DNA from: Christensenella massiliensis
GTDB lineage: Bacteria > Bacillota > Clostridia > Christensenellales > Christensenellaceae
Length of the DNA stretch: 64,000 bases
Assembly (NCBI GenBank): GCA_900155415.1
Contig: LT700187.1
Coordinates: forward strand, 930,001 to 994,000
Reading direction: 5' to 3'
Shown: one piece after another, positions 20,995 through 46,810 of the stretch
Layout of the letters: every line of letters begins with the position of its first letter
How positions within the stretch are numbered: the stretch's first letter is position 1
Notes under the pieces: model-generated
Database searches by the model: none
Told to the model about the DNA's origin: nothing
The model's input: the letters and a program-made list of their open reading frames with translations, nothing else
Made by a program: the position numbers and the translations under genes

Positions 20995-21319
20995 ACGGCA
21001 GAGCGGAACAGCCGATGTCGATAAAAAAATACAAAGCAAAATAGAATAGTTCAATATACGGTTTCACAGAATATGCTAATATAAATACAGCGTTCCGCAG
21101 GATGGGGCGCCCGTTCAGGAAAGCTGTTTCCTGAACACAGAGACGTTTGCGTGCAGATCATACGAATAACGTCTGGTATTCTATTTGTGCGCAAAAGCAT
21201 AAACAGATCGTAAATCACCGGCGGCTTTACAGGCCGTGCGCTCTGCGCACAGTAAAACCGCCGCAAGCACGGAAAGCGTCCGGCCGCGCAGCGGCGAGAC
21301 CTTTTCGAAATATTCATAA

Positions 21320-21530
21320 AGTAGCTTTGTGGCCCCGCGGTGTGCGTTTGCGCGCGGGGATGGACAAGGGAATTGGGTGAAAGTCCCAAACGGAATCCGC
21401 CGCTGTAAGCGCTGAGGCAAGCATCCGTTGGCGAAAGCCAGTCACTGGGAGACCGGGAAGGCAGGGTGCCTGACGCGAAAACAACAGAAGCTGTTTTCAC
21501 AGGCGTAAGTCAGAAGACCTACAAAGAGAC
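21320..21530 (+). ncRNA. Cobalamin (AdoCbl-type) riboswitch
   Basis: The conserved core is unmistakable: GGGTGAAAGTCCCAAACGG (from 21375), CCGCCGCTGTAA, the GCCAGTCACTGG stretch (from 21437), GGGAAGGC, and GTAAGTCAGAAGACCTAC at the 3' end. The outer stem is CTTTGT (21325-21330) with ACAAAG (21521-21526). It lies on the plus strand ahead of the DUF4430 and ECF genes and should lower their expression when B12 is plentiful. Confidence 0.96.
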
Positions 21531-21532
21531 GA

Positions 21533-21580
21533 AAAAAAGACGGGCGGGCGCCGGAACGTTTGCGCAGGGGTCTTTTTATT
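21533..21580 (+). terminator. Riboswitch-linked terminator-like hairpin
   Basis: AAAAAGAC (ending 21541) pairs with GTCTTTTT (21570-21577) around a GC-rich interior with GCGC/GCGC pairing; the right arm forms the T run. It begins immediately after the riboswitch, so it is the likely expression platform. Confidence 0.6.
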
Positions 21581-21596
21581 GTTCGCGGGAATACGG

Positions 21597-21627
21597 CCGC
21601 GGCGGATCGCATTCGCCGCGGTTTTTT
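21597..21627 (+). terminator. Strong rho-independent terminator downstream of the riboswitch
   Basis: CCGCGGCG (21597-21604) / CGCCGCGG (21614-21621) followed by six Ts. It precedes the first gene, so transcripts must read through both this and the previous hairpin. Confidence 0.85.
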
Positions 21628-21662
21628 ATTTGTCTGCGTATGCCGGAAGGAAAGACGGAAAA

Positions 21663-22016
21663 ATGGATCAAATAGAAGCGTGCAGGCAGGAAGCCGAAAA
21701 ATGGAAAAAATGGGAAAAAGCGGGCGCATTTCGCAATATGGACCGGGAGCGTGCGGAAAAATATAACCTCTACCGGCAGGCATGCGTCCGGCGGTTTGCT
21801 TCTCTTTACCGGGAAATGGACGACGAGGCGCTTCTCGGTATTCTGCGCAGCCGGGCGGCGGAGCTCGGCAGAAATCCCAACCGCCGGGAGGTGTTTCCGG
21901 TCTATCATATTTTTTTGCGTATGAGATTCAAAAACTGGCCGTCTGCTCTGCGGGCGGCGGGGCTGAAGCCCCCGAAGGAGAAGAAGAGATATGAAAACAG
22001 GAACAAAAGCCGCTAA
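21663..22016 (+). CDS. Small protein with a homing-endonuclease-associated (HNH) repeat
   Basis: 117 residues. ATG at 21663 lies after the terminator with GGAAGGA upstream; the longer frame would start inside the terminator. N-terminal half is a charged helical segment (EACRQEAEKWKKWEKAG); the C-terminal half, DDEALLGILRSRAAELGRNP ... FKNWPSALRAAGLKP, matches the repeat that accompanies HNH homing endonucleases and probably binds DNA. No nuclease domain is present. It is the first gene under the B12 riboswitch and overlaps the next gene by 26 bp, so translation is probably coupled. It may be a small DNA-binding regulator (inference). Confidence 0.65.
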   Translation: MDQIEACRQEAEKWKKWEKAGAFRNMDRERAEKYNLYRQACVRRFASLYREMDDEALLGILRSRAAELGRNPNRREVFPVYHIFLRMRFKNWPSALRAAGLKPPKEKKRYENRNKSR

Positions 22017-23358
22017 AAAAACCGCATTTAACGTCATTATGGCGGTTGCGGCAGCCGTCATCGTGATTGGCGCGGTCATGATTGCGGGCAGCCTGCAGGG
22101 ATGGTTCGACGGCGGCGGACAGACGGCACAGGGCGGAACTGCGGCTGCGGAAGCGGTGACCGCGGAAAATAAGACCGGCAGCGCCAACATCGAGCGGGAG
22201 GGGATCGCCTATTCCCTTGAGGACGGCACGAAGCTGCGGGACGGCGACATCATCGAGACGCTCAACGGCTCTTCTGTAGAGCTTGCGCTGCCCGCAGGCG
22301 CGGTCAGCCTGAACCAGAACACCGAGGCCGTGGTACGCATCGGGGAGGACGGCTTTTCGATAGAGCTTACAAACGGAGAAGCCTTTGTAAATACGGACGG
22401 CGCGTTCACCCTGCGGCTCGCGGAGCTTGAAACGGACGTGACCGCTGCCTCCGGCGTATTCTCCGCCAGCGCCCCTGCGGGCAGCGCGAACGTGTATGTC
22501 TACGAAAACAGCGTAAGCGCGGGCGGCATAGAGGTCTCGGCCGGGCAGGCTGTGTCGCTCTATGCGGATGGTCAGGCGCCGTCGGTCGCGGCGCTTTCTC
22601 TCGCGGCGCTGAACGATTTTGACATCGGGCAGGTGCGCGCGGCGAACGAAACGAAAACGCTGTGCTTTACGAACGGTGAGCTTGACGCGCTTGCGGCGGA
22701 GCGGGAGGAACAGCTGCGCTCCGCGCTTGAGCAGCAGCAGGCCGAACAGGAAAAAGCACAGCAGATCGAAGAGCAGCGGCAGAACAATCAGAATGGAATG
22801 GGAGGCTCCGCCGGCGGTACGGGAAGCAGCGCTGCGGGCGGCGCTTCCGGGAGCACAGGCGGCTCCGGGTCCTCCGGCGGCGCATCGGGAGGAACGGGCG
22901 GCAGCGGCTCATCCGGAAATGCAGGAAATGCGGATGCGGGGCTTCCCGCGAATCCTACCTGCACCATCGCCATCCGCTGCAATACGATATTGGATAATAT
23001 GGAGAATCTCGCGGAGGGCAAAAACAAATATGTGCCCGCGAACGGCGCCATACTTGCAACCTCTACCCTCGAATTCAGCGAGGGAGAAACGGTGTTCGAC
23101 GTTTTGAAGCGCGCGTGCTCGCTTGCGGGCATCCAGCTCGAGTATTCGTGGACGCCGATGTATAACAGCTATTATGTGGAGGGCATAGGTAATCTGTATG
23201 AGTTCGACTGCGGGAACCAGTCGGGCTGGATGTATCAGGTGAACGGGTGGTATCCGAATTACGGCTGCTCGGAATATAAAGTGCAAAACGGGGATTCCAT
23301 CGTATGGAACTATACGTGCGAGGGCTATGGGGCGGATCTTGGCGCAGGCATGTCCTGA
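21991..23358 (+). CDS. Membrane-anchored protein with FecR-like and DUF4430 (transcobalamin-like) domains
   Basis: 455 residues, ATG at 21991 with AAGGAGA upstream. Order: one N-terminal transmembrane helix (about 12-35), a FecR-like beta domain (about 70-195, with DGTKLRDGDIIETLNGSSVELAL), a glutamine/glutamate-rich coil (about 230-265), a Gly/Ser linker, and a C-terminal DUF4430 domain (about 320-450, with FSEGETVFDVLKRAC and GNQSGWMYQVNGWYPNYGC). DUF4430 is homologous to the beta domain of transcobalamin and intrinsic factor. The protein would sit outside the membrane as a B12-binding or hand-over factor; B12 binding is inferred from the riboswitch and the fold. Confidence 0.82.
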   Translation: MKTGTKAAKKTAFNVIMAVAAAVIVIGAVMIAGSLQGWFDGGGQTAQGGTAAAEAVTAENKTGSANIEREGIAYSLEDGTKLRDGDIIETLNGSSVELALPAGAVSLNQNTEAVVRIGEDGFSIELTNGEAFVNTDGAFTLRLAELETDVTAASGVFSASAPAGSANVYVYENSVSAGGIEVSAGQAVSLYADGQAPSVAALSLAALNDFDIGQVRAANETKTLCFTNGELDALAAEREEQLRSALEQQQAEQEKAQQIEEQRQNNQNGMGGSAGGTGSSAAGGASGSTGGSGSSGGASGGTGGSGSSGNAGNADAGLPANPTCTIAIRCNTILDNMENLAEGKNKYVPANGAILATSTLEFSEGETVFDVLKRACSLAGIQLEYSWTPMYNSYYVEGIGNLYEFDCGNQSGWMYQVNGWYPNYGCSEYKVQNGDSIVWNYTCEGYGADLGAGMS

Positions 23359-23429
23359 TGGGAGAAACGGCTCGCGCCCGCGCGCGAAAGATGAGATAAA
23401 AAGAACGGGAGAAAGAAGAGGTAGGAAGG

Positions 23430-26400
23430 ATGAAACAGGGAAGTAAGAAGCGGCTTATGAAGCTCGTCGCGGTGCTGCTCACGATTGCTCTCGTGATCGG
23501 CGCGCTGCCGCTCACGGCAATGGCGCAGCAGGCACAGAACCCTGCCGCAGCCATAACGGAGGGCGCGCCGCAGGAAGCGGACGCGCAGCCGTCCGAAAGT
23601 GCGGAGCCAAGTGTGCAGCCAAGCGCACAGGCCTCGGAAGAACAGCCTGCGCCGGAGGCGTCCGAAACGGCAGACCCAAGCGGGGAGCCGTCTGAAGAGC
23701 CCGCAGCGGAGGAGACAGCAGGCCCGGCCGCACAGAGCACGGAACCGGCAGAGCCGGAGCCGTCTGCGGAAATAAGCGCGGAACCGTCCGCACAGCCGCA
23801 GGCAAATGTGCTGGCGGCCCCGGCGCCGGCGGCACGGAGCATCGGCGATGTACCTGCCGGAGAAGAGAAAATAGGGCAGGTGTATGTCAGCATCGAGGAT
23901 ACGGTGCCGAAATCGGGGGCGGACGACCCCGGCCCGCGCGGCGTTATGGCCGAGGGCTGGGTGGACCTCTACCCGTCCGATACCATGATGTCCGTCGTCG
24001 TCAGGCTTGCGGACAGCAAGGGCCTTGAGGTTGAGGGGGCGGAATCAAATTATATCACGTCCATCGGCGGCCTCGCGGCGTTCGACCGCGGAAGCATGAG
24101 CGGATGGATGGGCACGCTGAACGACTGGTTCACAAACGAGGGCTTCGGCGCTTTCACCGTGGCGAACGGAAACCTGAAGGACGGCGATACCGTCACGATC
24201 CTGTATACGCTGAATTACGGGGAAGACGTCGGAGGCTCGTGGGGCAATACCGATAAGACCGTCAGCGCGATCGGCGTGAGCGCGGGAACGCTCGAGCCCG
24301 CATTTGATAAGGATACGCACGAATATACGCTGACCCTCCCGGCGGGAACGGATTCCGTCAAAATCACGCCTGCTGCGTCGAACAAGAACTATCAGGTGCG
24401 CGCGAGCGTGGATGGTGTGGAATATAAGCGCACACAGAGCATTCCTGTTTCGGACGGGACCGTCATCACGGTAAAATGCGGCGACCCGTCGTGGCCGTCC
24501 ATGAATGATAATAGCGGTCCTGCCGAGCTATATACGCTCACGGTGAAGCTCGGCGGGGAAGAGGTCAACACGCCTCCGGCGCGCAAAGCGGGCGTTCCGG
24601 CGGAGGCTTCCGCAAAAACGGAGCCGGGGACCGCATGGACGCTCGACCTTTCCACGATCTTTGAGGACGCGGATGGGGACGCGCTCTCCTACAAGGTGAG
24701 CGTAGACGGCGGCGGGGCTGTTCCGGCGGACGAAAGCTACGCCTATACGCCGCAGGCGGCGGGAGAAACGAAGCTCGTCTTTACGGCAAACGACGGAAAA
24801 GAGGATTCCAAAGACGCCTACACCGTAACGCTCAAGGCGGAGACTGCGGAAAGCCGCCTGCAGGAAGCGGTAGACGCGCTGGAAGACGCATGGTATAAAA
24901 TGCGGCCGGTATGCGGAACGGACACGAACGTTACCGATGTGATGAAAGCGGAGCTCGTAGAGCTCGGCTACGGCGACATCGAGGTCGCAGTCAAGAGCTC
25001 GGACGACGAAGAGCACGTCGCGGCGGACGGCGCGATCACCTATTTTTACGATTTGAATTCCTATGTGGGCGTTGCCAATGTGGACGTCGTGTTCACCTTT
25101 ACGCTCGGCGGAGCGTCCAAAGAGTATACCCAGCGGGTCATCGTCGGCTGGGATACGGTCCGCGTGGCAAAGGACATTGAAGAACAAGAAGCGTCCGCGG
25201 TCACATGGGATACGATCAAAGGCGAAAACGCGGCGGCGGACAGCGTGACGTCCGACCTCACGCTGCCCCAGTATGCAGGTACGGCGTATGGAGATTCGCT
25301 CGCCAAAATTTCATGGGAGTCGTCGAACCCGGACGTCGTTTCCCTCAAGGAAAACGGAGATTCGTGGGATTATGAGCCGTATACGGGCGTGGTTACAAAG
25401 CCGGAAGCGGATACGGACGTGACGCTCACGGCGACCTTTACCTTTAAAAAGGACGAGTCGTGCACGGTCAAAAAGCAATTCAGTATTACGGTAAAAGGCT
25501 ACAGCGAGGAAGAGATCGAGCAGAAAAAGGCGGAGATGCTCGCAGAGCTGAACGAAAAATATACGGACGGCCTGCTCAAGGATTTTACGACGCAGGAGGC
25601 GCTCGACCGTGAAAACGTAACGGGAGATATCCAGCTTCCCATTCCCTCGCGGCTCGGCCTTGTCAATAAGGAAGTGACGGTATCGAGCAGCAACGCGGAC
25701 GTTGTGACGATCAACGGCTACCGCGCCGCCGTGGTATGCCCGTTTGGGGAGGACGCGCAGGTAGACCTCATCGTCACGCTGACGCGCGGAAGCATCAGTG
25801 TGGAAAAGCGCATCCCGCTTACCGTAAAGGCGATCGACGAGGCGGAGATCGACAGGGAGATCGAGCTGATGGAGGCGGCCAAGGCGGCCTATTTCGATGG
25901 CATCAACAATGGGGCGAACCCGGATAAAGATCATGTGACGGAGAACCTTACCGCGTTCCGCGAGGTGAATTTCGGCGAAGGGGATTCCCTCGTATGGACG
26001 TATACCTATCTGGACGACAAGGGAACGGGCATCAGGCCGGTCTCGATCGAGCCGGACGACGAAATGGGGGAACTGGGCTACAACCTGTTCCAGTCCTCGA
26101 ACACTTCGGTCATCAAGCATGAGAATCTTCTGGTCACGCAGCCCGCGCAGGATACGCAGGTCACGATCAGCTCCGTGCTGTCCAGCACGAAATTTGAAAA
26201 ATATGCGGAGCAGTATCCGGAGAACGAGAAGCTGCAAAAGCTGTACCGCCAGCCCGTCAGCGTGACGGTGACGGTAAAAGCGCCGGTAGACGAGGACGCC
26301 GTCCTTGCGGACATCAAGGCGGCTGTGGACGGCGTATCGCTCTCGGAAGTGACGGGCCTTTATGTGCGCGAGACGGACTGGGATGAAAATTATGACGACG

Positions 26401-29400
26401 TCATCGTGACGAACGTCGAACAGACATGGCAGCTTAGAATGAAGCGCGACGACATTGCCGTAACGGTGGTAAAGAGCGAAAACGCCAACATCGCGCCGGA
26501 CGGCGGCGTTGCCTTTACGGACGAAAAGGTGCAGGGGAACGTGACCTTCCGCTTCACAAAGGACGGCGTTTCCTATGAAAAGGAGGTGCTCGTCACCGTT
26601 CCCGTCCACATAAAGACGGTGCAGGAGCAGATCGACGGGCTCACGGCGCTGTTCGGAACAGACGAAGGCTTTGACCTCATCAAAGGAGACAATCCATCGA
26701 AAGAGGCGGTGACGCAGCCGCTCAAATTGAAAACAACAGCGTCGTATTACGGGCTGACCGGCTATTCGGATGTCAAGCTGGAATGGACGAGCTCGGATAC
26801 GGACGTGATCGACCCGCCGTCGTACGGCAGCGATTCCGTCAAGGTAAACCGCCCGGCACAGGGAGAGCCGGACGCGGAGGTGCGGCTCACGCTCACCGTG
26901 AAAAAACAGTATAGCTCGGATACGGGAACACCGGGCTCAGTCGATATCGTGCTGAAGGTTCCCGCCATAACAGAGGAGGAGGTCCGGGAGGCGAAGGAGG
27001 CTGTAGACGCGGCGCTCGCAAACGTGACGCTCGACGGCTTTACGGAATCGGGCAGCCTCGGAAAGACGGAGATCGACCCGCAGGCCCTCGATTTCGACGT
27101 GCAGCTCAAAAGCCTTACAGATCTTATTGCCGCCGGAATGATAGAGGACACGGCGACCAACCGGCAAATGGAATGGGAATGGTCGACGGACGGAACGGAG
27201 GCGGACGGGAACTATCTGAAAATCAATTATTTAAAGTGCAACGTGATGCGTACCGCAGGAACGGCGGATATGGAAACGAACCTCATCCTCACGCTGACCT
27301 ATAACGGTTACAGCGGAAGCAAGACATTCCCGGTGACCATCAAAGGGCTGACGGAAGCGGAAGTGGAAGCGGCGAACGCGGAGATGAAAGAATATGAGGC
27401 GGCCATCTGGAACGGACTGAAAGGGGAAAACATCTCTGCGGATTTCGTGACCTGCGACCTCGGCTGGGACCGTGAAAATGGCAGCGTCGCATTCTACAGG
27501 ATGCATAAAGAGGACGGACAGGTCGTCTATACGCTGAAGAACGGAAGCTGCCCCGCCAACGTGGGCGTAGAGCTCGGCTCGTGGAAGTCGTCCGACCCGA
27601 CGGTCATCGGGCACACCACGGGCGGCTACGGAACGGTGGATATCCTCGAGCTTTTGAAGCGCCCGGACCTCGGGGAAGAGGACTTCAGCGTGACGCTCAG
27701 CACGAATATGAAGAATCTGCGCTACGGCAACGCGAAGAACGCGGACGGAACGGCGGCCGTGCCGGATATCACGGCGGAGCTGAAGCTCACGGTTCCGGCC
27801 TATACGAACGAGCTTGCGGAGCTCTCGGCGGAGGGCTTCCCCTTTGACTTTGATCCTGCGCTGGACGCGTTTGCCATCGAAGTGCCGAAGGATACGGAGC
27901 AGGTCAAAATAACGGCAAAGGCCAAGGACCCGGCGGCAAGCGTGACGGTAAACGGGCAGGAGCCTGACGAGAGCGGCAGCGTAACGGTCGCCCTTTCGGG
28001 CACGGGCGTACAGCTCCCCGTAGTAGCTGCCGTGCAGGAACAGCCGAGGACAGTGACGCTTACTGTAAACTATGCGGCGGACTATCGGGAGGTCTATGAA
28101 AAGACGGGCGGATATCTTCATTCCACCGTAAAAGACCCCATCGTCAGCACGTCCGGCGGCGAATGGGCGGTCATCGGACTTGCCCGCGCGGGCTATCCGG
28201 TGGAGGACGGCTATTACGACAAATATATTGCGAACGTCATCCGTACCCTCGAAGAGACGGACGGCGTGCTGGACAGCAGGAAATATACGGAATACTCGCG
28301 CGTCGTCCTTGCGCTTACGTCGATCGGCTACGATGTGACGAACGTAGGCGGATATAATCTGCTCGAGCCTCTTGCCGATTTTGACCAGACGGTATGGCAG
28401 GGGATCAACGGAGCCATTTACGCGCTGATCGCCTTTGACTCGCACGGCTACGAGATCCCGGCGGCGCCGGAGGGCAAGACGCAGACCACGCGTGAAAATC
28501 TGATCGGGCACATTCTGGAGCAGGAAAAAAGCGGCGGAGGCTGGGCGCTCTTCGGAAGCAAGGCCGACCCGGATATCACGGCAATGGCGCTGCAGGCGCT
28601 CGCACCGTATTACGATAAGGACGCAGAGGTAAAGGCGGCGGCAGACCGGGCGCTCGCGGCGCTGTCCGGCATACAGGCGGCGGACGGCGGCTTTGGAAGC
28701 TGGGGCTCGGTAAACAGTGAATCGTGCGCGCAGGTCGTGGTGGCGCTGACGGCGCTCGAAATCGATCCGGACAGCGATCCGCGCTTTGTAAAGAACGGAA
28801 AATCGGCGCTGGACGCGCTCCTTTCCTTCACGACGGAGGAGGGCGGCTTCAGCCACGTTGCGGGCGGCGGAACGAACGGCATGGCGACGGAGCAGGGCTA
28901 TTACGCGCTCGCGGCCTACGACCGCTATTTAAGCGGTAAGACTTCGCTTTACGATATGAGCGATGTAAGCGTAAACGCGCCGTATGAAACGGCGGGCCGC
29001 CTGATCGACGCCATCGGTACGGTGAACCTCGGCAGCGAAAACGCGATAAAAGCGGCGCGGGCAGCGTATGATGCGCTGACGGACTCCCAGAAAAAGATGG
29101 TGGATAATTACAGCGTGCTCGAGGCCGCGGAAAAGAAGCTGGCCGAGCTGCAAAAGCCGGTTCGGGACGTGATGGCGAAAATCGACGCCATCGGCACGGT
29201 GGGCCCCGGCAGTGAAAGTGCGGTAAAAGCTGCACGGACGGCGTATGATGCGCTCGATGCAGAGCAAAAGGCGTATGTCACGAACTACGCCGTGCTCACG
29301 CAGGCGGAAACCAAATTGGCGCAGCTTGAAAAAGCGGCTGAAGTGGAAAAACTCATCGGCGCCATCGGAGAGGTAAACGCAAGCAGCAAAGACGCGATCG

Positions 29401-30359
29401 CGGCGGCGCGGGCGGCATATGACGCGCTCTCGGCGGAGGAAAAGGTGCTGGTCGGAAACTATGCTGTGCTGACGGCGGCGGAGCGTGCGTTCGACGCGCT
29501 TTCCGCGCAGGACGGCGGCACGCAGACCGAAACCGGTACGGAGGCTGCGGCACAGCCCGGCGGGTCCACCAAGTCTCTCGGGAATGCAGGAACCGGAACG
29601 GCGGTGACGATCGACGGCATAAAATACACGATGTCCGCACAGGCGGCGGAGGTCGCAGAGAAGATCGCGGCGATGCCTAAGGGAGAGGCGTATGACCTTG
29701 AGGCAGTGCTCGAAACCTATAAGCTGTACGATGCGCTTTCGGACGCGCAGAAAGCGGAGGTCGTGAACTATGCAGACCTCGAGGCGCAGATGAACCGCGT
29801 GGGTGTGGATAACCATAAAGACGACGCGGCAGGACTGAAAGCGGAGGGGATCGGCTGGCATGTGAAGATCAGCATCCGCGAAGTAGGACAGTCGGAGGAC
29901 GTATTCCAAAAGCTTTCGGGAAGCGTGGGAAGCAACACGCTTCTGAAGATGTTTGAGATCACGCTGACCGACTTGCTGACGGGCGAAGAATATACGCCTG
30001 TGTCCGGCGTGACCCTGCGCCTGCCCTCGCCCGATCTTACAGGCTTTGACGGCGCGGTCATCGCGCACTATGCGGACGGCGGTCAGGCGGAGTATCTTGA
30101 ATGCAGGATAGAGAACGGCGAGCTCGTTTGGACGGCGGAAAGCTTCTCCTACTTCGGCGTTCTCGGCGCTGCGGCTGCAGCGGAAGCCGTGCTGGAGGAC
30201 GGCGGCGCGGACGAAGCGGCGGTTTATCGCGCTATGGCGGCGGACGGCGCGCAGGCAGCTCCGGCCGTTTGGCCGTGGATCCTCGTGATCTGCATCGGCG
30301 CTGCGGCCGTTGTGCTCGCGGTGCTGGCGAAAAAGGGCGTTTTGCACGGCAAGCGGTAA
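23430..30359 (+). CDS. Giant surface protein with DUF4430, Ig-like repeats and an alpha6/alpha6 barrel (intrinsic-factor-like)
   Basis: 2309 residues. Rough order: signal peptide 1-35; Pro/Glu/Ser-rich low-complexity stalk 40-140; DUF4430 domain about 147-268 (GSMSGWMGTLNDWFTNEGFG); cadherin-like beta-sandwich about 273-372; a further Ig-like domain to about 470; about seven atrophied bacterial Ig-type repeats with helical linkers to about 1455; a second cadherin-like domain to about 1547; a prenyltransferase/terpene-cyclase-like alpha6/alpha6 domain about 1550-1840 with QW-like repeats (GGGWALFGSKADPDITAMAL, GGFGSWGSVNSESCAQVVV); three helical repeats of about 58 residues plus a divergent fourth (1851-2127; IDAIGTVNLGSENAIKAAR); a C-terminal beta domain; and a membrane anchor about 2278-2303 with basic tail. 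No LPXTG sorting motif. The alpha6/alpha6 plus DUF4430 pair is the domain set of intrinsic factor, suggesting cell-surface B12 capture (inference). Confidence 0.85.
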   Translation: MKQGSKKRLMKLVAVLLTIALVIGALPLTAMAQQAQNPAAAITEGAPQEADAQPSESAEPSVQPSAQASEEQPAPEASETADPSGEPSEEPAAEETAGPAAQSTEPAEPEPSAEISAEPSAQPQANVLAAPAPAARSIGDVPAGEEKIGQVYVSIEDTVPKSGADDPGPRGVMAEGWVDLYPSDTMMSVVVRLADSKGLEVEGAESNYITSIGGLAAFDRGSMSGWMGTLNDWFTNEGFGAFTVANGNLKDGDTVTILYTLNYGEDVGGSWGNTDKTVSAIGVSAGTLEPAFDKDTHEYTLTLPAGTDSVKITPAASNKNYQVRASVDGVEYKRTQSIPVSDGTVITVKCGDPSWPSMNDNSGPAELYTLTVKLGGEEVNTPPARKAGVPAEASAKTEPGTAWTLDLSTIFEDADGDALSYKVSVDGGGAVPADESYAYTPQAAGETKLVFTANDGKEDSKDAYTVTLKAETAESRLQEAVDALEDAWYKMRPVCGTDTNVTDVMKAELVELGYGDIEVAVKSSDDEEHVAADGAITYFYDLNSYVGVANVDVVFTFTLGGASKEYTQRVIVGWDTVRVAKDIEEQEASAVTWDTIKGENAAADSVTSDLTLPQYAGTAYGDSLAKISWESSNPDVVSLKENGDSWDYEPYTGVVTKPEADTDVTLTATFTFKKDESCTVKKQFSITVKGYSEEEIEQKKAEMLAELNEKYTDGLLKDFTTQEALDRENVTGDIQLPIPSRLGLVNKEVTVSSSNADVVTINGYRAAVVCPFGEDAQVDLIVTLTRGSISVEKRIPLTVKAIDEAEIDREIELMEAAKAAYFDGINNGANPDKDHVTENLTAFREVNFGEGDSLVWTYTYLDDKGTGIRPVSIEPDDEMGELGYNLFQSSNTSVIKHENLLVTQPAQDTQVTISSVLSSTKFEKYAEQYPENEKLQKLYRQPVSVTVTVKAPVDEDAVLADIKAAVDGVSLSEVTGLYVRETDWDENYDDVIVTNVEQTWQLRMKRDDIAVTVVKSENANIAPDGGVAFTDEKVQGNVTFRFTKDGVSYEKEVLVTVPVHIKTVQEQIDGLTALFGTDEGFDLIKGDNPSKEAVTQPLKLKTTASYYGLTGYSDVKLEWTSSDTDVIDPPSYGSDSVKVNRPAQGEPDAEVRLTLTVKKQYSSDTGTPGSVDIVLKVPAITEEEVREAKEAVDAALANVTLDGFTESGSLGKTEIDPQALDFDVQLKSLTDLIAAGMIEDTATNRQMEWEWSTDGTEADGNYLKINYLKCNVMRTAGTADMETNLILTLTYNGYSGSKTFPVTIKGLTEAEVEAANAEMKEYEAAIWNGLKGENISADFVTCDLGWDRENGSVAFYRMHKEDGQVVYTLKNGSCPANVGVELGSWKSSDPTVIGHTTGGYGTVDILELLKRPDLGEEDFSVTLSTNMKNLRYGNAKNADGTAAVPDITAELKLTVPAYTNELAELSAEGFPFDFDPALDAFAIEVPKDTEQVKITAKAKDPAASVTVNGQEPDESGSVTVALSGTGVQLPVVAAVQEQPRTVTLTVNYAADYREVYEKTGGYLHSTVKDPIVSTSGGEWAVIGLARAGYPVEDGYYDKYIANVIRTLEETDGVLDSRKYTEYSRVVLALTSIGYDVTNVGGYNLLEPLADFDQTVWQGINGAIYALIAFDSHGYEIPAAPEGKTQTTRENLIGHILEQEKSGGGWALFGSKADPDITAMALQALAPYYDKDAEVKAAADRALAALSGIQAADGGFGSWGSVNSESCAQVVVALTALEIDPDSDPRFVKNGKSALDALLSFTTEEGGFSHVAGGGTNGMATEQGYYALAAYDRYLSGKTSLYDMSDVSVNAPYETAGRLIDAIGTVNLGSENAIKAARAAYDALTDSQKKMVDNYSVLEAAEKKLAELQKPVRDVMAKIDAIGTVGPGSESAVKAARTAYDALDAEQKAYVTNYAVLTQAETKLAQLEKAAEVEKLIGAIGEVNASSKDAIAAARAAYDALSAEEKVLVGNYAVLTAAERAFDALSAQDGGTQTETGTEAAAQPGGSTKSLGNAGTGTAVTIDGIKYTMSAQAAEVAEKIAAMPKGEAYDLEAVLETYKLYDALSDAQKAEVVNYADLEAQMNRVGVDNHKDDAAGLKAEGIGWHVKISIREVGQSEDVFQKLSGSVGSNTLLKMFEITLTDLLTGEEYTPVSGVTLRLPSPDLTGFDGAVIAHYADGGQAEYLECRIENGELVWTAESFSYFGVLGAAAAAEAVLEDGGADEAAVYRAMAADGAQAAPAVWPWILVICIGAAAVVLAVLAKKGVLHGKR

Positions 30360-30537
30360 AAAGCAGGGAAGAAAGAACAGGAAACCGCAACAGATAACAG
30401 GGAACGGGAAAGGAGCGCGGCGGCGCGCAAAGCCAAAACGGGCCTCCTTCCCGTTTCCGGCTTCGGTTCGGCAATACACAGCGAACGGCGCGGCGGAGCC
30501 CTCCCGGCTCCGTCCGGCTGTTTGTATGGAGAAGGAA

Positions 30538-31422
30538 ATGGAGCAGGGCTTCGGGGGATATCATCCGGCGGTCAATTTCATATTTTTTGCGGGCGCGGTC
30601 CTGTTCGGGATGTTTTTTGTGCATCCCGCTTTTTTGCTTCTGTCCGTCGGGTTGTCCTGTACGAGCTATTTTCTCTTCAAGGGGCGGCGCGGCGTGCGCC
30701 TTTTGCTGGGCATGCTGGTCCTGTTCGCGGCGGTATCGCTTCTGAACCCGGTGTTCAACCCGTATGGGGAGACGGTGCTGTTCACGTGGCTGTGGGGGAG
30801 GCCGTTCACGCTGGAGGCGCTTTTGTACGGGCTTGCGACGGGTGGGATGTTCCTGACGGTCATTCTGTGGTTCGCGTGTTATAATGAGATCATGACGAGC
30901 GATAAGTTTACCTACCTGTTCGGGAAATTTGTTCCTGCGCTTTCGCTGGTCCTGTGTATGGTGCTGCGCTTTGTGCCGCACTTCAGGGAAAAGGCGCAGA
31001 CCATCGGCGGCGCGCGGCGGTGCATCGGGAAATCGGCGGAAAACGGAACGAAGCGGGAGCGGCTTGAAAGCGGCATGGCGGTTCTGTCCGTGCTCACGTC
31101 GTGGTCGCTCGAGGGCGCGGCGGTCACGGCGGACTCCATGAAGAGCCGGGGATACGGCAGCGGACCGCGGACGAATTTTTCCATCTATCGGCTTTCCCGC
31201 CGGGACGGAGTGGTCCTGACGCTGCTCGCGGTGTGTGCGGCGGGGCTCGCCGCATGTATGCTGCGGGGCGGAACGGAGGCAGTGTTCCTGCCCGGTATTT
31301 TCTGGGCGCAGGGCCCGGCAACGGCGCTCGGGTCGGTTTTCTATGGGATATTTTTGGCGGTTCCCGCCGCGATTCAAATAGGGGAGGGTATCACATGGCG
31401 CATTTTGCGGTCGAGGATTTGA
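30538..31422 (+). CDS. ECF transporter transmembrane T component (first copy)
   Basis: 294 residues; ATG at 30538 has GGAGAAGG upstream, with 30526 as an alternative. Several hydrophobic helices and the coupling-helix motif SMKSRGYG near the C-terminus identify an EcfT/CbiQ protein, which joins the substrate-binding S component to the ATPases. It overlaps the ATPase gene by 28 bp. Position in the riboswitch locus supports B12 or corrinoid uptake. Confidence 0.85.
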   Translation: MEQGFGGYHPAVNFIFFAGAVLFGMFFVHPAFLLLSVGLSCTSYFLFKGRRGVRLLLGMLVLFAAVSLLNPVFNPYGETVLFTWLWGRPFTLEALLYGLATGGMFLTVILWFACYNEIMTSDKFTYLFGKFVPALSLVLCMVLRFVPHFREKAQTIGGARRCIGKSAENGTKRERLESGMAVLSVLTSWSLEGAAVTADSMKSRGYGSGPRTNFSIYRLSRRDGVVLTLLAVCAAGLAACMLRGGTEAVFLPGIFWAQGPATALGSVFYGIFLAVPAAIQIGEGITWRILRSRI

Positions 31423-33080
31423 CGTTTACTTACCCGGAGGCGAAAAAAGAGGCGCTTTCCGGCGTGAGCATCAGCATTGAAAAGGGGGAATACGTCACCC
31501 TGTGCGGAAAGAGCGGAAGCGGCAAAACGACGCTGATGCGGCACCTGAAAACCGCGCTTGCGCCGCACGGGAAGCGGACGGGGCGGATCCTGCTGGACGG
31601 ACGGCCGCTTGAGGAGATAGGCCTGCGCGAGCAGAGCGCGCGCATCGGGTATGTCATGCAGGACCCGGACAGTCAGATCGTGACAGATAAGGTGTGGCAC
31701 GAGCTGGCGTTCGGGCTGGAGAGCCTCGGGTGCGACCAGAAGACCATGCGCCTGCGCGTGGCGGAAATGGCGAACTATTTCGGCATCGGAACGTGGTTCC
31801 ACCGGAATGTGGCAGAGCTTTCGGGCGGGCAGAAGCAGCTTTTGAACCTCGCGTCCATCATGGCGATGCAGCCGGACGCGCTCATCCTCGACGAGCCGAC
31901 GAGCCAGCTCGACCCCATTGCCGCAGCGGATTTCCTCAATACGGTGCGCAAAATAAACCTTGAGCTCGGAACGACGGTCATTCTGTCCGAGCATCGGCTG
32001 GAGGAGGTGTTCCCCAGCGCGGACCGGGTGATCGTGATGGAAAAAGGGAAAGTTTTGGCGGAGGACACGCCCCGCCGCATCGGGCAGCGGCTGCATGCGG
32101 AACAAAGCGACATGGCGGCCGCGCTCCCGTCGCCCATGCGCATTTTTTACGGTGTGGGGAGTAGCCTTGATTGCCCGCTCACGGTACGCGAGGGGCGCAG
32201 GTGGCTCTCGGAGGAACTGAAAGACACGGAGATCAGGCAGGACAGCTTGCCCGATCCCGGGGAGACAGAGGAGCCGGAGGCAAAGGACGCCGCCGTCGCG
32301 CTCAAAGAGGTGTGGTTCCGCTATGAAAAGGATGCGCCGGACGTGCTGCGCGGCACAAGCCTTTCCGTGCCGAAGGGAACTCTGTTCGCCGTGGTAGGCG
32401 GGAACGGCACGGGAAAATCCACCATGCTGAAAACGGTGTGCGGGATATGCAGGCCCTACCGGGGCAAGGTAATGATCGATGGGAAGCGGATCGAAAAATA
32501 TAAGGCGGAAGAGCTGTTCCGCGGCAACCTCGCCATGCTGCCGCAGGACCCGCAGAGCCTGTTCGTCAAAAAAACGGTGGAGGAGGACCTTGTAGAGATG
32601 CTCGCGGACGTTCCGGGGAGCATCGGAGAAAAAGAGGAGCTCATCAACGGGGTGGCGCGGGACTGTGAGGTAATGGGGCTGCTTTCCTCCCACCCCTACG
32701 ATCTTTCGGGCGGAGAGCAGCAGCGGGCGGCGCTTGCGAAGGTGCTGCTGTGCAGGCCGCGTATCCTGCTTCTCGACGAGCCCACAAAGGGCATCGATAA
32801 CTTTTACAAGCAAAAGCTGGCGGAAATTTTAGACAGGCTGAAAGCAAAGGGAGCGACGGTCCTCATGGTGTCGCACGACGTGGAATTCTGCGCGCAGTAT
32901 GCGGACAGCGTTTCCATGTTTTTCGACGGCGGCGTGGTGACGACGAACACGCCCGCGCGCTTTTTTTCGCAGAACAGCTTTTATACAACGGCGGCGAACC
33001 GCATGAGCCGCCATATTTTCAGAAATGCGGTGACGAACGGGGACGTGATCGAGCTATGCCGGATCAACAAACAAAACTGA
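31395..33080 (+). CDS. ECF transporter ATPase with two fused cassettes
   Basis: 561 residues, ATG at 31395 after GGGGAGGGTATCAC. First cassette: Walker A GKSGSGKTT, signature LSGGQKQLLNLAS, Walker B ALILDEPTSQLDP. Second cassette from about residue 300: GGNGTGKSTMLKT, LSGGEQQRAALAK, ILLLDEPTKGID. Both look active. The fusion replaces the usual separate EcfA and EcfA' proteins. It energises the ECF complex encoded around it. Confidence 0.9.
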   Translation: MAHFAVEDLTFTYPEAKKEALSGVSISIEKGEYVTLCGKSGSGKTTLMRHLKTALAPHGKRTGRILLDGRPLEEIGLREQSARIGYVMQDPDSQIVTDKVWHELAFGLESLGCDQKTMRLRVAEMANYFGIGTWFHRNVAELSGGQKQLLNLASIMAMQPDALILDEPTSQLDPIAAADFLNTVRKINLELGTTVILSEHRLEEVFPSADRVIVMEKGKVLAEDTPRRIGQRLHAEQSDMAAALPSPMRIFYGVGSSLDCPLTVREGRRWLSEELKDTEIRQDSLPDPGETEEPEAKDAAVALKEVWFRYEKDAPDVLRGTSLSVPKGTLFAVVGGNGTGKSTMLKTVCGICRPYRGKVMIDGKRIEKYKAEELFRGNLAMLPQDPQSLFVKKTVEEDLVEMLADVPGSIGEKEELINGVARDCEVMGLLSSHPYDLSGGEQQRAALAKVLLCRPRILLLDEPTKGIDNFYKQKLAEILDRLKAKGATVLMVSHDVEFCAQYADSVSMFFDGGVVTTNTPARFFSQNSFYTTAANRMSRHIFRNAVTNGDVIELCRINKQN

Positions 33081-33913
33081 AGCGGTGCGGAACGTATACG
33101 TGGTTCGGGTTTACTCTGCCGTTTGAACGAAAGCTCGCGCTCATCGCGGAGGCGGGCTTTCAGACCATCTGCACATGGTGGGACGATACGTTTGCCGGAA
33201 CGGACGGGCGCAAGGAGGAGCATTTCCGGCTCGCGGAGCGGGCGGGGCTTTCCCTCGAGCACACGCATCTTCCCTATTTCGGGTGCGACGCGCTGTGGTT
33301 CCCCGGAGAAGAGGGAGACGCGCTGTGCGCGCGCTATGCACAGAGCGCGGCGCAGGCGGCGGACGCGGGAATCAAAACGGCGGTGCTGCACCCGTTCGGG
33401 AAATACGTGCCCGAAAACGGAAACTGGAGCATATACCTCTCGCGCATGCGGCGCATTGCGGAGCGGTGTGAACAAAGCGGCATACGCCTTGCCGTAGAAA
33501 ACCTTGCGGACAACGAAGCGCTCGCGCGCATCGTGGACGCGCTTGCAGACAGCCCCGCCGTGGGCGTCTGCTTCGATACGGGGCACAACCATGTGACGGC
33601 GGGGAACGACTTCAGCCTGCTTTCGCGGTTTCCGGACAGGATCTTTGCCCTGCACGTGCACGACAACAGCGGTTTGCGGGACGAACACCTGCTCCCCTAC
33701 GAGGGCACGGTGGACTGGGCCGCGTTCCTTGCGGCGGCGGAGCGGACGGAGTTCGGCGGCTCGCTGATGCTCGAGGCGTGCTGGCCCGTGGACTGGGATA
33801 AGCTCAATGAGCCGGATTATGAATATGAAGAGCCGCCCATACCGCCGGAGGAATACCTTGCGCGGGCAAGGAAAAGCTGCGGGCGGATATTGGGGGAAAG
33901 GACGGAGGATTAA
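33056..33913 (+). CDS. TIM-barrel protein of the sugar isomerase/epimerase (AP endonuclease 2-like) family
   Basis: 285 residues, start ATG at 33056 inside the end of the ATPase gene (25-bp overlap), with no strong ribosome binding site, so coupling is likely. Metal-site motifs of the xylose-isomerase-like TIM barrel are visible: AVENLADN, VGVCFDTGHNHV, ALHVHDNSG and LPYEGTVDW, giving the usual E, D-H, H and E ligands. Enzymes of this family isomerise or epimerise sugars or related acids. Its role between the A and S genes of an ECF transporter is not obvious; no sugar pathway is adjacent. Confidence 0.82.
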   Translation: MPDQQTKLKRCGTYTWFGFTLPFERKLALIAEAGFQTICTWWDDTFAGTDGRKEEHFRLAERAGLSLEHTHLPYFGCDALWFPGEEGDALCARYAQSAAQAADAGIKTAVLHPFGKYVPENGNWSIYLSRMRRIAERCEQSGIRLAVENLADNEALARIVDALADSPAVGVCFDTGHNHVTAGNDFSLLSRFPDRIFALHVHDNSGLRDEHLLPYEGTVDWAAFLAAAERTEFGGSLMLEACWPVDWDKLNEPDYEYEEPPIPPEEYLARARKSCGRILGERTED

Positions 33914-33914
33914 C

Positions 33915-34670
33915 ATGGAAGAACGCATCACGCTCGGAAAAAAGAAACGGGAGGAGCTGCCGGAAAAGCGGAAGTTTTCGCGGCGCACGGTGCTTTCCTT
34001 TTTCATCGTCCTGATCGCCATCCCGTTCACCATCTGGTTCGGCTGGCGCTACGGAGACCGGAATTTTTATATCGTGAGCCTGCTCATCATTATCTATACG
34101 ATGATCCCCTTTTTTCTCGTGTTTGAAAAGCGCAGGCCGCAGGCGCGGGAGCTCGTCATCCTTGCCGTGATGTGCGGCATCGCCGTCGCCTCGCGCGCCG
34201 TTTTCATCTGGCTGCCCCATTTCAAGCCCATGACCGCGGTCATCATCATTACGGGCATCGCATTCGGGGCGGAGGCGGGCTTCCTCACGGGCGCGGTATC
34301 CGGCTTTGTTTCCAATTTTATTTTCGGGCAGGGCGCGTGGACGCCGTGGCAGATGTTCGCGTTCGGCATGGCGGGCTTCCTTGCCGGGCTGTTTTACCAG
34401 AAAGGCCTGCTGCGCAGGGAAAAGCTTCCGCTGTGCGTGTTCGGGGGCGTAGTCACGATGTGTGTGGTGGGGCCGCTGCTCGACACCTGCGCGCTGTTTA
34501 CCATGAGCTCGGTCATCACGCCGGAAAGCGCGGCGGCCATCTATCTTTCGGGCCTGCCCGTGAACGCGGTGCACACCTCGGCCACGGTGCTCACCCTGCT
34601 TCTGGTCTCAAAACCGATGTTTGAAAAGCTGGACCGCGTGAAGCGGAAATACGGCATGCTGGAGGCGTAA
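33915..34670 (+). CDS. ECF transporter substrate-specific S component (probable cobalamin/corrinoid)
   Basis: 251 residues; ATG at 33915, GGAGG seven bases upstream, one base after the previous stop. The N-terminus is basic and cytoplasmic, then six to seven hydrophobic helices with TGAVSGFVSNFIFGQGAWTP and WQMFAFGMAGFLAGLFYQKG typical of large S components. Under a B12 riboswitch and beside DUF4430 proteins it is most likely the B12 or corrinoid binder (CbrT-like in role); specificity is inferred from context only. Confidence 0.8.
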   Translation: MEERITLGKKKREELPEKRKFSRRTVLSFFIVLIAIPFTIWFGWRYGDRNFYIVSLLIIIYTMIPFFLVFEKRRPQARELVILAVMCGIAVASRAVFIWLPHFKPMTAVIIITGIAFGAEAGFLTGAVSGFVSNFIFGQGAWTPWQMFAFGMAGFLAGLFYQKGLLRREKLPLCVFGGVVTMCVVGPLLDTCALFTMSSVITPESAAAIYLSGLPVNAVHTSATVLTLLLVSKPMFEKLDRVKRKYGMLEA

Positions 34671-34672
34671 AC

Positions 34673-35569
34673 ATGCGCTTCGACTCATGGAACCCGGCGG
34701 TCAACTTCATCTTTTTCGGCATCGTCGTCGCTTCGGCGGTCGCGTTCAACCAGCCGGTGTTCCTTGCCATCGGCTATGCCTGCTCCTTTGCCTATTCGGT
34801 CAAGCTGAACGGGAAAAGGGCGGTCTGCTTCAACCTTGCGCTCATTCCGTTTATCGTGCTGTTCGCCCTTTTTTATTCGGGCTACAACCACTTCGGGGTC
34901 ACGAACCTCGCCGTCAATTTCATCGGCAACCAGCTCACCCTCGAGGCCCTTGTCTCCGGCTTTGTCATCGGAACGCGGGCGGCGTCGGTGCTGATGTGGT
35001 TTTCCTGCATGAACGCCGTCGTTTCGAGCGACAAGGTGGTGTATCTTTTCGGGCGCGTTTCGCCCCGTTTGTCTCTGTTTTTATCCATCCTGCTGCGCAT
35101 GGTGCCGCGCGTGAAGGAACGTGCGCGGAAGATCGGCGCCGCCCAGCGGGCAATCGGACGCGGCGCGGGGCAGGGGGGCCTCCTGCGCCGCATGCGAAAC
35201 GGTATGCGCATCGCGTCTATCGTGATCACATGGACGATGGAGAGCATGATCGGCACGTCGGACTCCATGAAAAGCCGGGGCTATACCCTGCGGGGGCGCA
35301 CCGCCTTTTCCATTTACCGCTTCGACTACCGGGACAGGAGCTTCGTGCTCGTGCTGTTCGGCTGCGCCGCCATTCTCCTGATGGGCATACTGCTCGACCA
35401 GACGTGCATTCTGTATGACCCGGAGATCATCCTGAACCGTATCACGCCCCTTTCCGGCGTATTCTACGCGGCCTATGCGCTTTTGTGCCTGCTGCCCATG
35501 CTGGTGCAGATAATGGGGGAGAGACGCTTTGCACGGCAGAGAAAAGCGGGCTGTGAAAACGGCGCTTAA
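34673..35569 (+). CDS. ECF transporter transmembrane T component (second copy)
   Basis: 298 residues, ATG at 34673 two bases after the S-component stop with GGAGGCG upstream. It shares with the first T protein the N-terminal pattern WNPAVNFIFF versus HPAVNFIFF, the central SDKVVYLFG region and the SMKSRGY coupling motif, so the two are paralogues. A second T gene in one ECF operon is unusual; it may form an alternative complex or a heteromer. Last gene before the terminator at 35713. Confidence 0.85.
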   Translation: MRFDSWNPAVNFIFFGIVVASAVAFNQPVFLAIGYACSFAYSVKLNGKRAVCFNLALIPFIVLFALFYSGYNHFGVTNLAVNFIGNQLTLEALVSGFVIGTRAASVLMWFSCMNAVVSSDKVVYLFGRVSPRLSLFLSILLRMVPRVKERARKIGAAQRAIGRGAGQGGLLRRMRNGMRIASIVITWTMESMIGTSDSMKSRGYTLRGRTAFSIYRFDYRDRSFVLVLFGCAAILLMGILLDQTCILYDPEIILNRITPLSGVFYAAYALLCLLPMLVQIMGERRFARQRKAGCENGA

Positions 35570-38351: not shown

Positions 38352-38369
38352 CAGAGCTTCCTCCTCTCC

Positions 38370-38687
38370 TTATTTCAGCTTTTTGATGAGCTGCACCGCT
38401 TCGTCTACAACGGCGGTGTTGCCCTTTTTGATCTCTTCCACCACGCATGTTTCCATGTGGTCCTGCAAAATCAGGTAACCGAATGCCGCAAGCGCGCTTT
38501 CCACCGCCGCGACCTGCGTTAAAATATCCCCGCAGTAGCGGTTCTCGTCCAGCATTTTACCGATGCCGGAAAGCTGCCCGGCCATGCGGCTCAGACGGTT
38601 TTTTAAAAGCCGCAGCTCCTGCCCGCTGCGCGGAGTCGCCTTCTGATGGCATGCGCACGGCGCGGCCGCCTTGCTTTTGATTTCCAT
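38370..38687 (-). CDS. csoR: Copper-sensing repressor, CsoR family
   Basis: 105 residues, all helical. The Cu(I) ligands are visible as C in NRYCGDILTQ and H and C in HMETC. An extra N-terminal CACHQ segment precedes the family core RLLKNRLSRMAGQLSGI. CsoR represses copper export genes and lets go when Cu(I) binds. It is first in the csoR-copA operon, and two family-type operators lie upstream. Confidence 0.93.
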   Translation of the reverse strand: MEIKSKAAAPCACHQKATPRSGQELRLLKNRLSRMAGQLSGIGKMLDENRYCGDILTQVAAVESALAAFGYLILQDHMETCVVEEIKKGNTAVVDEAVQLIKKLK

Positions 38688-39541: not shown

Positions 39542-39557
39542 GTTAGCGATTGCTAAC
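39542..39557 (+). promoter_or_regulatory. Inverted-repeat operator (box 3) before the ECF transporter
   Basis: GTTAGC-GATT-GCTAAC, matching boxes at 15142 and 16193 apart from the centre. It lies 28 bp upstream of the ATG of the S component and just after the TetR stop. Confidence 0.8.
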
Positions 39558-39585
39558 TATAAAAATGTTGGAGGAGGACAACAAG

Positions 39586-44220: not shown

Positions 44221-44609
44221 GCGACTGGAAAGCGGGCGCGATCCGTTCCTTTTTCCGGGTGCGCGTCCATTCAGATATTCCGGGCCGCCTGCGGCTCAAG
44301 ATCAGTAATTTCCGGCTGATCCCGCAGGCAGGGGTGAGCGCTTCCCTGCCGTATATCCCGAAGGCTTTCGGCCTGCTTCCGGGCGTAAAGACGGCGGAGC
44401 TGAACGCTAAGGTAGGCAGCCTCCTCATCTTGTATGACCCTGCTGTGACCGGAACGAAAGCTATTTTGGATTGGATCGATACGATGATCGAAACGGGCGT
44501 CAAATACGCGCCCGCTATTGCGCGTTCGGGCATGAAAGACCCGGCGCGCATCGAACGTTTTTTCATAGAGAAGCTGCAAACGCGGCTCCCATCGGGCGAA
44601 CGGAGGTAA
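44217..44609 (+). CDS. HMA2-like domain protein (single domain)
   Basis: 130 residues, ATGA overlap with the preceding gene. The domain is seen in PGRLRLKISNFRLIP through GVKTAELNAKVGSLLILYD, again lacking CxxC. There is no membrane helix, so this is a soluble or peripheral relative of its neighbours. It ends one base before the P-type ATPase gene and likely works with it. Confidence 0.72.
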   Translation: MSDWKAGAIRSFFRVRVHSDIPGRLRLKISNFRLIPQAGVSASLPYIPKAFGLLPGVKTAELNAKVGSLLILYDPAVTGTKAILDWIDTMIETGVKYAPAIARSGMKDPARIERFFIEKLQTRLPSGERR

Positions 44610-44610
44610 T

Positions 44611-46809: not shown

Positions 46810-46810
46810 G

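Follow-up and report, generated by a model that had tools for sequence, protein, structure and literature searches.

In the genome of Christensenella massiliensis (2.56 Mb in a single contig), a stretch of 64,000 nucleotides (contig LT700187.1, positions 930,001 to 994,000; hereafter the window, with positions counted from its first letter) carries a cobalamin riboswitch followed, on the plus strand, by genes for two proteins with a DUF4430 domain (P0001 and P0002), for a CbiR-like protein and for an importer of the energy-coupling factor (ECF) type. The original prediction had placed there a riboswitch at the head of a plus-strand gene run, two DUF4430 proteins, an alpha/alpha barrel in one of them and an ECF transporter. 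This observation is confirmed: the riboswitch (21312-21540) scores 69 bits with RF00174, PF14478 is over the Pfam cut-off in both P0001 and P0002, the barrel, weak in Pfam, is a confident AlphaFold2 domain that matches alpha/alpha barrels, and EcfT, EcfAA', the S component and a second EcfT are found by Pfam or NCBIfam. The locus is a real, B12-related and well-marked case of a protein class predicted in 2007 (Burroughs et al. 2007; PMC1796856), with a CbrT-type ECF module, a CbiR-like gene and split putative capture proteins.

The gene run behind the riboswitch

The features, all on the plus strand, are the following (ORF, open reading frame; TM, transmembrane).

21312-21540, plus strand: cobalamin riboswitch aptamer RF00174 (69 bits, E 6.1e-15, full model, positions 1-189)
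21595-21623, plus strand: candidate intrinsic terminator of the riboswitch (13 bp stem and T run, from a pattern scan)
21663-22016, plus strand: small ORF with an HNH-repeat domain (PF18780, E 2.2e-10), between the riboswitch and P0001
21991-23358, plus strand: P0001, DUF4430 protein with a TM-like segment (PF14478, E 6.3e-21; 33-row family alignment A2)
23430-30359, plus strand: P0002, 2309 residues, DUF4430 and barrel protein (Pfam, AlphaFold2 of the barrel, hydropathy)
30526-31422, plus strand: first EcfT (CbiQ, E 1.2e-4, below cut-off; start codon picked by eye)
31395-33080, plus strand: EcfA-EcfA' fused ATPase (NCBIfam TIGR04520, 359 bits against a cut-off of 315, in two stretches; start by eye)
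33056-33913, plus strand: CbiR-like TIM barrel, possible cobamide-remodelling phosphodiesterase (PF01261, E 3.2e-28)
33915-34670, plus strand: ECF S component, CbrT-like (PF07155 and PF12822 over cut-off)
34673-35569, plus strand: second EcfT (CbiQ, E 1.1e-7, over cut-off)

The riboswitch exceeds the gathering threshold of 31.5 bits over the whole aptamer, and RF00174 is the sole Rfam match of the window at that threshold. The grouping of riboswitch and DUF4430 goes beyond chance, since the whole genome holds four RF00174 matches and two DUF4430 matches, both of the latter in this run. The candidate terminator hardly stands out from chance, with two terminator-like patterns observed between 21000 and 22000 against 1.7 expected in shuffles; the RNA fold of 21541-21640 is not significant (z -1.1). 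From the small HNH-repeat ORF to the second EcfT, the genes follow in the order listed and are arranged as in an operon, because the ORFs overlap or sit no more than about 170 bp apart. HNH-repeat domains are associated with homing endonucleases. For the small ORF, phmmer gives no homologue in any of the 51 loci compared below; for the first EcfT it gives homologues in 49 of 51. These loci are seeded on the S component (at least 51 loci, found by exact peptide patterns, many of which stop at contig ends).

In P0001, a TM-like segment (residues 15-33) is followed by a middle part without family, a Gly/Ser-rich linker and a C-terminal DUF4430 (23083-23316); a barrel match is absent. In P0002, the order is an N-terminal signal-like segment, DUF4430 (residues 184-247, 23979-24170; PF14478, E 6.1e-8, over cut-off), a stalk of Ig-like and cadherin-like parts (in Pfam, a Big_9 match just below cut-off, three aBig_2 and two cadherin-like stretches), the alpha/alpha barrel (residues about 1539-1850, 28044-28979) and a C-terminal TM-like segment. 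Hydropathy shows a single TM-like segment in P0001, close to its start, and one at either end of P0002; no LPxTG motif occurs in the last 80 residues of either. A surface location fits this hydropathy. Of the claimed surface display, the segments themselves are thus present; the location we infer from them. With its single TM-like segment and the short part before it, P0001 could also be imagined as a sensor, the DUF4430 proteins signalling the presence of extracellular B12 across the membrane rather than delivering it, and related domains are described, in the available text of PMC1796856, as fused to DNA-binding domains. Pfam finds no signalling domain in P0001 or P0002, however, and the riboswitch already supplies regulation, so that sensing seems very unlikely compared with a part in corrinoid uptake.

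The S component points to the cargo. Against solved structures, its best match is 6fnp (CbrT), with E 1.8e-7 for the sequence alone and 4.4e-18 with a 19-row family profile (A4, the window and 18 of the 51 S components); the next S component for the profile is 4hzu (E 4.2e-4), and CbrT is therefore the nearest. Purified ECF-CbrT of Lactobacillus delbrueckii transports cobalamin and cobinamide (structure entry 6FNP), as stated in the available text of PMC5997447; the S family, and hence the likely cargo, is common to both organisms. In L. delbrueckii, according to the same text, a gene cbrS adjoins cbrT and one ECF module is predicted to be shared with seven other S components, whereas in C. 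massiliensis EcfT, EcfAA' and the surface proteins are in one operon and the S component has two extra N-terminal TM-like segments compared with CbrT. A dedicated module is argued for by L014 (Paenibacillus glycanilyticus), L018 and L023 (three long S ORFs scanned), in each of which a single ORF encodes the S component together with the double ATPase.

For the CbiR-like protein the best NCBIfam family is CbiR (E 1.3e-13). Relatives are found in 8 of the 51 loci, with 33 to 47 bits, all eight below the CbiR cut-off; the best NCBIfam family is again CbiR in seven and an epimerase family in L007. With the CbiR of Akkermansia (PMC7733943, available text) it has in common the AP endonuclease 2 superfamily and a neighbourhood of corrinoid genes, at half the equivalog score. 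A quarter of cbiR genes adjoin transport genes, and a coupling to uptake is suggested in that text.

Linkage of DUF4430, riboswitch and S component

In the comparison of the 51 S-seeded loci, ORFs run from stop to stop and gaps are approximate. Family hidden Markov models find DUF4430 in 35 of 51 and the barrel in 26 of 51, none of them on the strand opposite the S component. In the loci that extend 8 kb or more upstream of S (34 loci), DUF4430 occurs in 28, the barrel in 22, either one in 30 and a cobalamin-type riboswitch in 17; in 14 of these 17 the riboswitch is upstream of S and in three (L044, L053, L054) it follows S and precedes a barrel or DUF4430 gene. In the complete set of 51 loci, RF00174 or RF01482 is present in 22, and in five of these (L039, L044, L049, L053, L054) it does not precede the ECF genes. 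The split form is frequent. Of 17 ORFs with a barrel and without DUF4430, 11 are followed by a DUF4430 ORF within 900 bp, in 10 of these 11 within 25 bp or overlapping. In 13 ORFs with both domains, DUF4430 comes first in 10 and the barrel in three; in L025, which belongs to the 10, the barrel is flanked by DUF4430 at either side.

A survey of the co-occurrence of riboswitch, DUF4430 and ECF genes, which had been suggested together with the original prediction, shows them linked in two genome samples. In 61 genomes of the order, DUF4430 is found in 21 and RF00174 in 37 (strict filters for RF00174). The riboswitch lies upstream of DUF4430, on the same strand and within 7 kb, in 14 of the 21 (13 of 20 without the genome of the window), against 0.06 expected by chance, all such expectations assuming random placement, independent genomes and rounded genome sizes; there is no opposite-strand case. 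Among the 14, the riboswitch match scores below cut-off in G030, G040 and G054, and the DUF4430 match does so in G060. The S profile has a match in 13 of the 21 genomes and none in 8; nine matches are strong (E < 1e-15), eight of these sharing a contig with DUF4430, while in the ninth genome (G041) DUF4430 sits on a 7 kb contig. The S-profile match of G054 carries an internal stop. RF01482 was considered as a substitute riboswitch in the seven unlinked genomes of the order and accounts for none of them (0 of 7).

In 109 genomes of the phylum, DUF4430 is present in 34, the genome of the window included. Without that genome, RF00174 lies upstream, on the same strand and within 8 kb, in 27 of 33 (0.52 expected; 26 of 33 over cut-off, the match of G127 being below it). 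Counted by domain, 60 of 75 DUF4430 domains have an upstream riboswitch, with one opposite-strand case. A CbrT-like S component occurs within 10 kb downstream of DUF4430 in 28 of 33 genomes (0.17 expected). Both links are present in 24 of 33, and neither in G088 and G113. An S-profile match exists somewhere in all 33 DUF4430-bearing genomes (in G074 only at 1.5e-7), a count that covers DUF4430 genomes only and carries no background rate. The riboswitch, the CbrT-like S component and this conserved linkage give strong support to B12-controlled uptake of corrinoids through an ECF importer.

A compact form occurs in four genomes of the order (L090, L091, L096, L097). It consists of a DUF4430 protein of 143 to 187 residues and, after it, a small membrane protein; the DUF4430 gene lies downstream of a cobalamin riboswitch match, at a distance of 262 to 587 bp. 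The riboswitch is below cut-off in L091 and L096, and DUF4430 in L097. The membrane proteins have no Pfam match at E 0.01; the S profile matches those of L096 (1.2e-4) and L097 (1.9e-10), with no match in L090 and L091. In L090, a CbiR-like ORF is found just upstream of the riboswitch. In G122 and G161, where RF00174 is absent, 18 and 12 bp separate the end of the DUF4430 match from the CbrT-like match that follows (3.8e-20 and 8.5e-21). From their first residues, the small DUF4430 proteins look like lipoproteins. In another genome of the order, G043, which has no RF00174 match, the DUF4430 match adjoins a small membrane protein (L094, 4550-5092).

Ten plasmid records match the P0001 domain, two of which were inspected. 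In Latilactobacillus p1_CACC879, the order is an LPXTG protein (barrel profile 9.1e-64), DUF4430, EcfT, ATPase and S. In Lactiplantibacillus pMF1298-5, a lectin-annotated gene and then DUF4430 come after the ECF genes; the annotation as fucose-binding lectin II (L100, 3440-4492) is doubtful, because the gene matches the barrel profile (1.8e-24). The plasmid is described as carrying B12 genes, and NrdJ, CobA, CblT, CblS, CobS, CobC and CbrVUT are listed (PMC6722938); the word DUF4430 is absent from the available text of that paper. In two Enterococcus loci (L026, L031), a second cobalamin riboswitch lies about 1.5 kb after S, with a further DUF4430 near 10.9 kb.

Folds of the barrel and of DUF4430

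In animals, intrinsic factor, transcobalamin and haptocorrin are built of an alpha/alpha barrel and a beta domain, and both folds are present in the C. massiliensis operon. The animal B12 carriers belong to PF01122, and P0001 and P0002 stand outside it. Profile searches with DUF4430 and Cobalamin_bind had been suggested; the first domain is found in both proteins, whereas PF01122 (Cobalamin_bind) has no match in P0001 or P0002 at E 0.1, nor in the barrel alone at 0.01.

By Pfam, the barrel gives SQHop_cyclase_C and Prenyltrans only, both below cut-off. From a 31-row alignment (A1, the window and 30 of 32 barrel stretches, the duplicate L019 and the partial L039 omitted; in the same way, A2 consists of the window and 32 of 34 DUF4430 stretches, the near-duplicates L037 and L019 omitted), AlphaFold2 predicts it as a mostly helical domain with high confidence (mean predicted local distance difference test, pLDDT, 95; predicted template modelling score, pTM, 0.92). 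In a Foldseek search with this model, drimenyl diphosphate synthase comes first by E-value (1.0e-5) and transcobalamin appears from rank 10 (4.2e-5); among the best 50 matches listed, on the other hand, the highest TM-score normalised by the model (TMq) is that of transcobalamin 2bb6, 0.64. With VIA-align, terpene cyclases reach Z 23, and transcobalamin, intrinsic factor and haptocorrin are found at Z 18.6-18.7, among sugar epimerases and prenyltransferases. The predicted fold is thus that of the transcobalamin barrel (TMq up to 0.64, Z 18.7), as it is of other families. The model does not single out a B12 barrel: the fold is compatible with one and not diagnostic of it, and terpene cyclases resemble the modelled barrel no less than transcobalamin does.

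These matches raise the possibility that the barrel is an enzyme of the terpene-cyclase or sugar-epimerase type, its best profile and structure matches being squalene-hopene and drimenyl cyclases. The motif argues otherwise. The barrel family has D-x-T-x-M; in A1, D and T are invariant (31 of 31 rows) and M is present in 30 of 31. In the motif of class II terpene cyclases, which we take to be DxDD, the last position is aspartate; at this position D occurs in 0 of 31 rows, and on this motif we reject terpene cyclase activity of the barrel. In addition, the protein is predicted to be exported, is riboswitch-controlled by position and adjoins genes for B12 transport. An enzymatic barrel is therefore highly improbable.

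Searches of P0002 and P0001 against solved structures give weak cyclase matches (0.08 to 0.09) or low-complexity matches. Profile alignment of both families to transcobalamin is weak (beta domain E 0.014, a 45-column barrel piece 0.016, probabilities about 3 percent). It pairs the invariant Asp of the barrel (model residue 177) with Asp176 of transcobalamin, presumably a B12 contact; no weight is placed on this pairing here.

In intrinsic factor, the barrel and then the beta domain are in one chain with a short linker. In P0001 and P0002 the domains are instead in separate chains, or far apart and reversed. The order of intrinsic factor, barrel then DUF4430, does occur in the relatives L014, L023, L025 and L036. 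For L025, with both domains in one chain, AlphaFold2 gives a mean pLDDT of 72.6, and transcobalamin chains take ranks 1-6 in Foldseek with this model, over 433 to 462 alignment columns and at a root-mean-square deviation of about 20 angstrom. With such a deviation, the relative placement of the domains in L025 is either mismatched to transcobalamin or not resolved. The likeness to intrinsic factor that had been claimed thus holds at the level of folds; it does not extend to the domain arrangement of P0001 and P0002, nor to a specificity of the barrel, with cyclases as close, and the domain packing is not resolved in the prediction.

Proposed capture, hand-over and possible cargo

The core idea of the original prediction was already in print as a prediction, since Burroughs et al. 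(2007) proposed it for the protein class: in the available text (PMC1796856), bacterial SLBB proteins, often with an alpha/alpha toroid, with a second SLBB protein and in operons with CbiO and CbiQ, are proposed as B12 scavengers, in hosts lacking key B12 synthesis genes. The C. massiliensis operon shares these features. It has DUF4430/SLBB in exported proteins (Pfam, with export read from hydropathy), a toroid alongside and fused (the AlphaFold2 barrel of P0002), a second paralogue and CbiO/CbiQ-like genes, and the host lacks B12 synthesis genes as judged on one marker (CbiD absent; CobS present). In the main text of that paper the terms riboswitch, S component and remodel are absent; what the present locus adds is the cobalamin riboswitch, the CbrT-like S component and the CbiR-like gene in the set, and the counting of the linkage. 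In the literature searched (mostly outside subscription papers), no experiments on DUF4430/barrel proteins and no description of the riboswitch-CbrT linkage were found. Within this literature, three features are new: the linkage as counted, the split form, which is frequent and has the barrel gene before the DUF4430 gene, and the CbiR-like gene.

We regard it as probable that this is a B12-repressed operon for corrinoid scavenging, with capture at the surface and hand-over to a CbrT-like importer; within it, the capture and hand-over by DUF4430 and barrel are plausible. When corrinoids are short, the riboswitch would permit expression of the operon, and P0001 and P0002 would be displayed on the outer face of the membrane. 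There, the DUF4430 (beta) domain and the alpha/alpha barrel would bind the corrinoid outside the cell. The most likely pairing is that the DUF4430 of membrane-anchored P0001 closes on the barrel of P0002. This pairing is supposed because the long stalk of P0002 carries its DUF4430 at the distal end and has the barrel nearer to the C-terminal membrane segment, while the DUF4430 of P0001 is anchored N-terminally, and because relatives have adjacent barrel and DUF4430 genes. The corrinoid would then pass to the CbrT-like S component, with EcfT and EcfAA' driving ATP-powered import. Inside, the CbiR-like enzyme may remove the lower ligand of imported cobamides, and salvage enzymes such as CobS may rebuild the preferred form.

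Several points weigh against this interpretation. The fold of the barrel is unspecific (in VIA-align, terpene cyclases score Z 23 and transcobalamin 18.7) and its sequence profile matches cyclases (1.2e-14), with no transcobalamin among 20 matches at E 0.01; the DUF4430 profile gave no relative in a search of solved structures. The domain order of P0002 is reversed compared with intrinsic factor, with DUF4430 about 1,300 residues from the barrel, and in the L025 model ten-residue blocks of the beta domain have pLDDT 37 to 71, with the packing of the domains not resolved. Some loci lack parts of the set: DUF4430 and barrel are both missing from 4 of the 34 evaluable S loci, the riboswitch link is absent in 7 of 21 (order) and 6 of 33 (phylum) DUF4430 genomes, and RF00174 has no matches in G014, G020, G043 and G049 (strict filters), nor in G113, G122 and G161. 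Among the control genomes, Lactococcus lactis and Methanosarcina acetivorans have DUF4430 and are outside the controls having RF00174. The CbiR-like protein reaches 51 bits against the NF041277 equivalog cut-off of 105. Finally, extracellular capture may be dispensable, because purified ECF-CbrT transports alone (PMC5997447, available text).

Since ECF-CbrT works in purified form without DUF4430 and barrel proteins, the operon could import corrinoids while these proteins serve another role at the surface, in anchoring, adhesion or polysaccharide binding. The broad fold kinship of the barrel, which includes sugar enzymes, would agree with such a role, as would the lectin annotation of one plasmid homologue. 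Against it stands the position of DUF4430 in the phylum sample, behind a cobalamin riboswitch in 27 of 33 genomes and near a CbrT-like S component in 28 of 33. Moreover, the compact pairs of DUF4430 and small membrane protein have no stalk or adhesin parts, and transcobalamin and intrinsic factor use both folds (PMC1796856, available text). We consider another surface role improbable, and B12 capture the better account of these proteins.

In the host, CbiD, one marker of anaerobic corrin synthesis, is not found; on this single marker, anaerobic corrin synthesis is probably absent. CobS (cobalamin-5-phosphate synthase), for a late step of corrinoid salvage, is encoded in the window outside the operon (56425-57177, minus strand; PF02654, E 5.5e-48) and is its sole match in the genome, which also has three B12-binding domain matches, two of them over cut-off. 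Of the other cobalamin riboswitches, one precedes an anaerobic ribonucleotide reductase (over cut-off) and another a BtuFCD-like operon (in NCBIfam its permease matches BtuC best; all below cut-offs). This last operon is a further point against our interpretation, in that the operon described here need not be the sole route of uptake. It also agrees with a variant of the same machine, not exclusive of the scheme above, in which the preferred cargo is cobinamide, another cobamide or a degradation product. CbrT itself takes cobalamin and cobinamide (PMC5997447, available text), and the CbiR-like gene and the CobS of the window suggest a remodelling of foreign cobamides. The identity of the CbiR-like protein, below its cut-off, speaks on the other side, and we hold this other cargo to be possible, though rather unlikely. 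Another of the four riboswitches of the genome (L087, 440-619) is not followed by any evident corrinoid gene; the first clear genes after it on the plus strand encode an ABC-type ATPase and a large membrane protein.

Other transport genes are found near the operon in the window. On the minus strand and convergent to it, 35754-38687 holds an HMA-bearing P-type ATPase and a small ORF that is CsoR-like by eye. About 4 kb after the operon, a second ECF-type cluster (39550-42287) consists of a Trep_Strep family membrane protein, a CbiQ-like EcfT and a double ATPase. Further on, 43633-47572 holds genes for a protein with an HMA_2 domain and for one that resembles P-type ATPases, together with two ORFs that have no Pfam match at 1e-5.

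ECF importers are otherwise held to bind their substrate directly through the S component. As a wider and more tentative proposal, DUF4430 proteins may be dedicated extracellular capture subunits of an ECF importer, at its simplest a beta-domain protein that works together with a CbrT-like S component, and in a fuller version an intrinsic factor split over two surface proteins, which would clamp the corrinoid and, being separate, could release it to S. A surface protein that aids a B12 importer by capture is known in the lipoprotein BtuG of Bacteroides (PMC6143338, available text), which partners the outer-membrane transporter BtuB; the likeness to P0001 and P0002 is one of role and not from a comparison of folds. 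The human B12 carriers hold their ligand almost irreversibly and release it only by proteolysis (PMC5997447, available text).

If true, the split clamp would ease this problem of release and show how such a clamp can be reversible. ECF importers would gain a partner for substrate capture, and Gram-positives, several of the relatives being from gut by their records, would have an equivalent of BtuG with which to compete for B12. The proposal, in the available text of PMC1796856, that animals gained transcobalamin-like proteins from Gram-positives becomes directly testable, and a function is offered for a domain of unknown function present in 34 of 109 genomes of the phylum.

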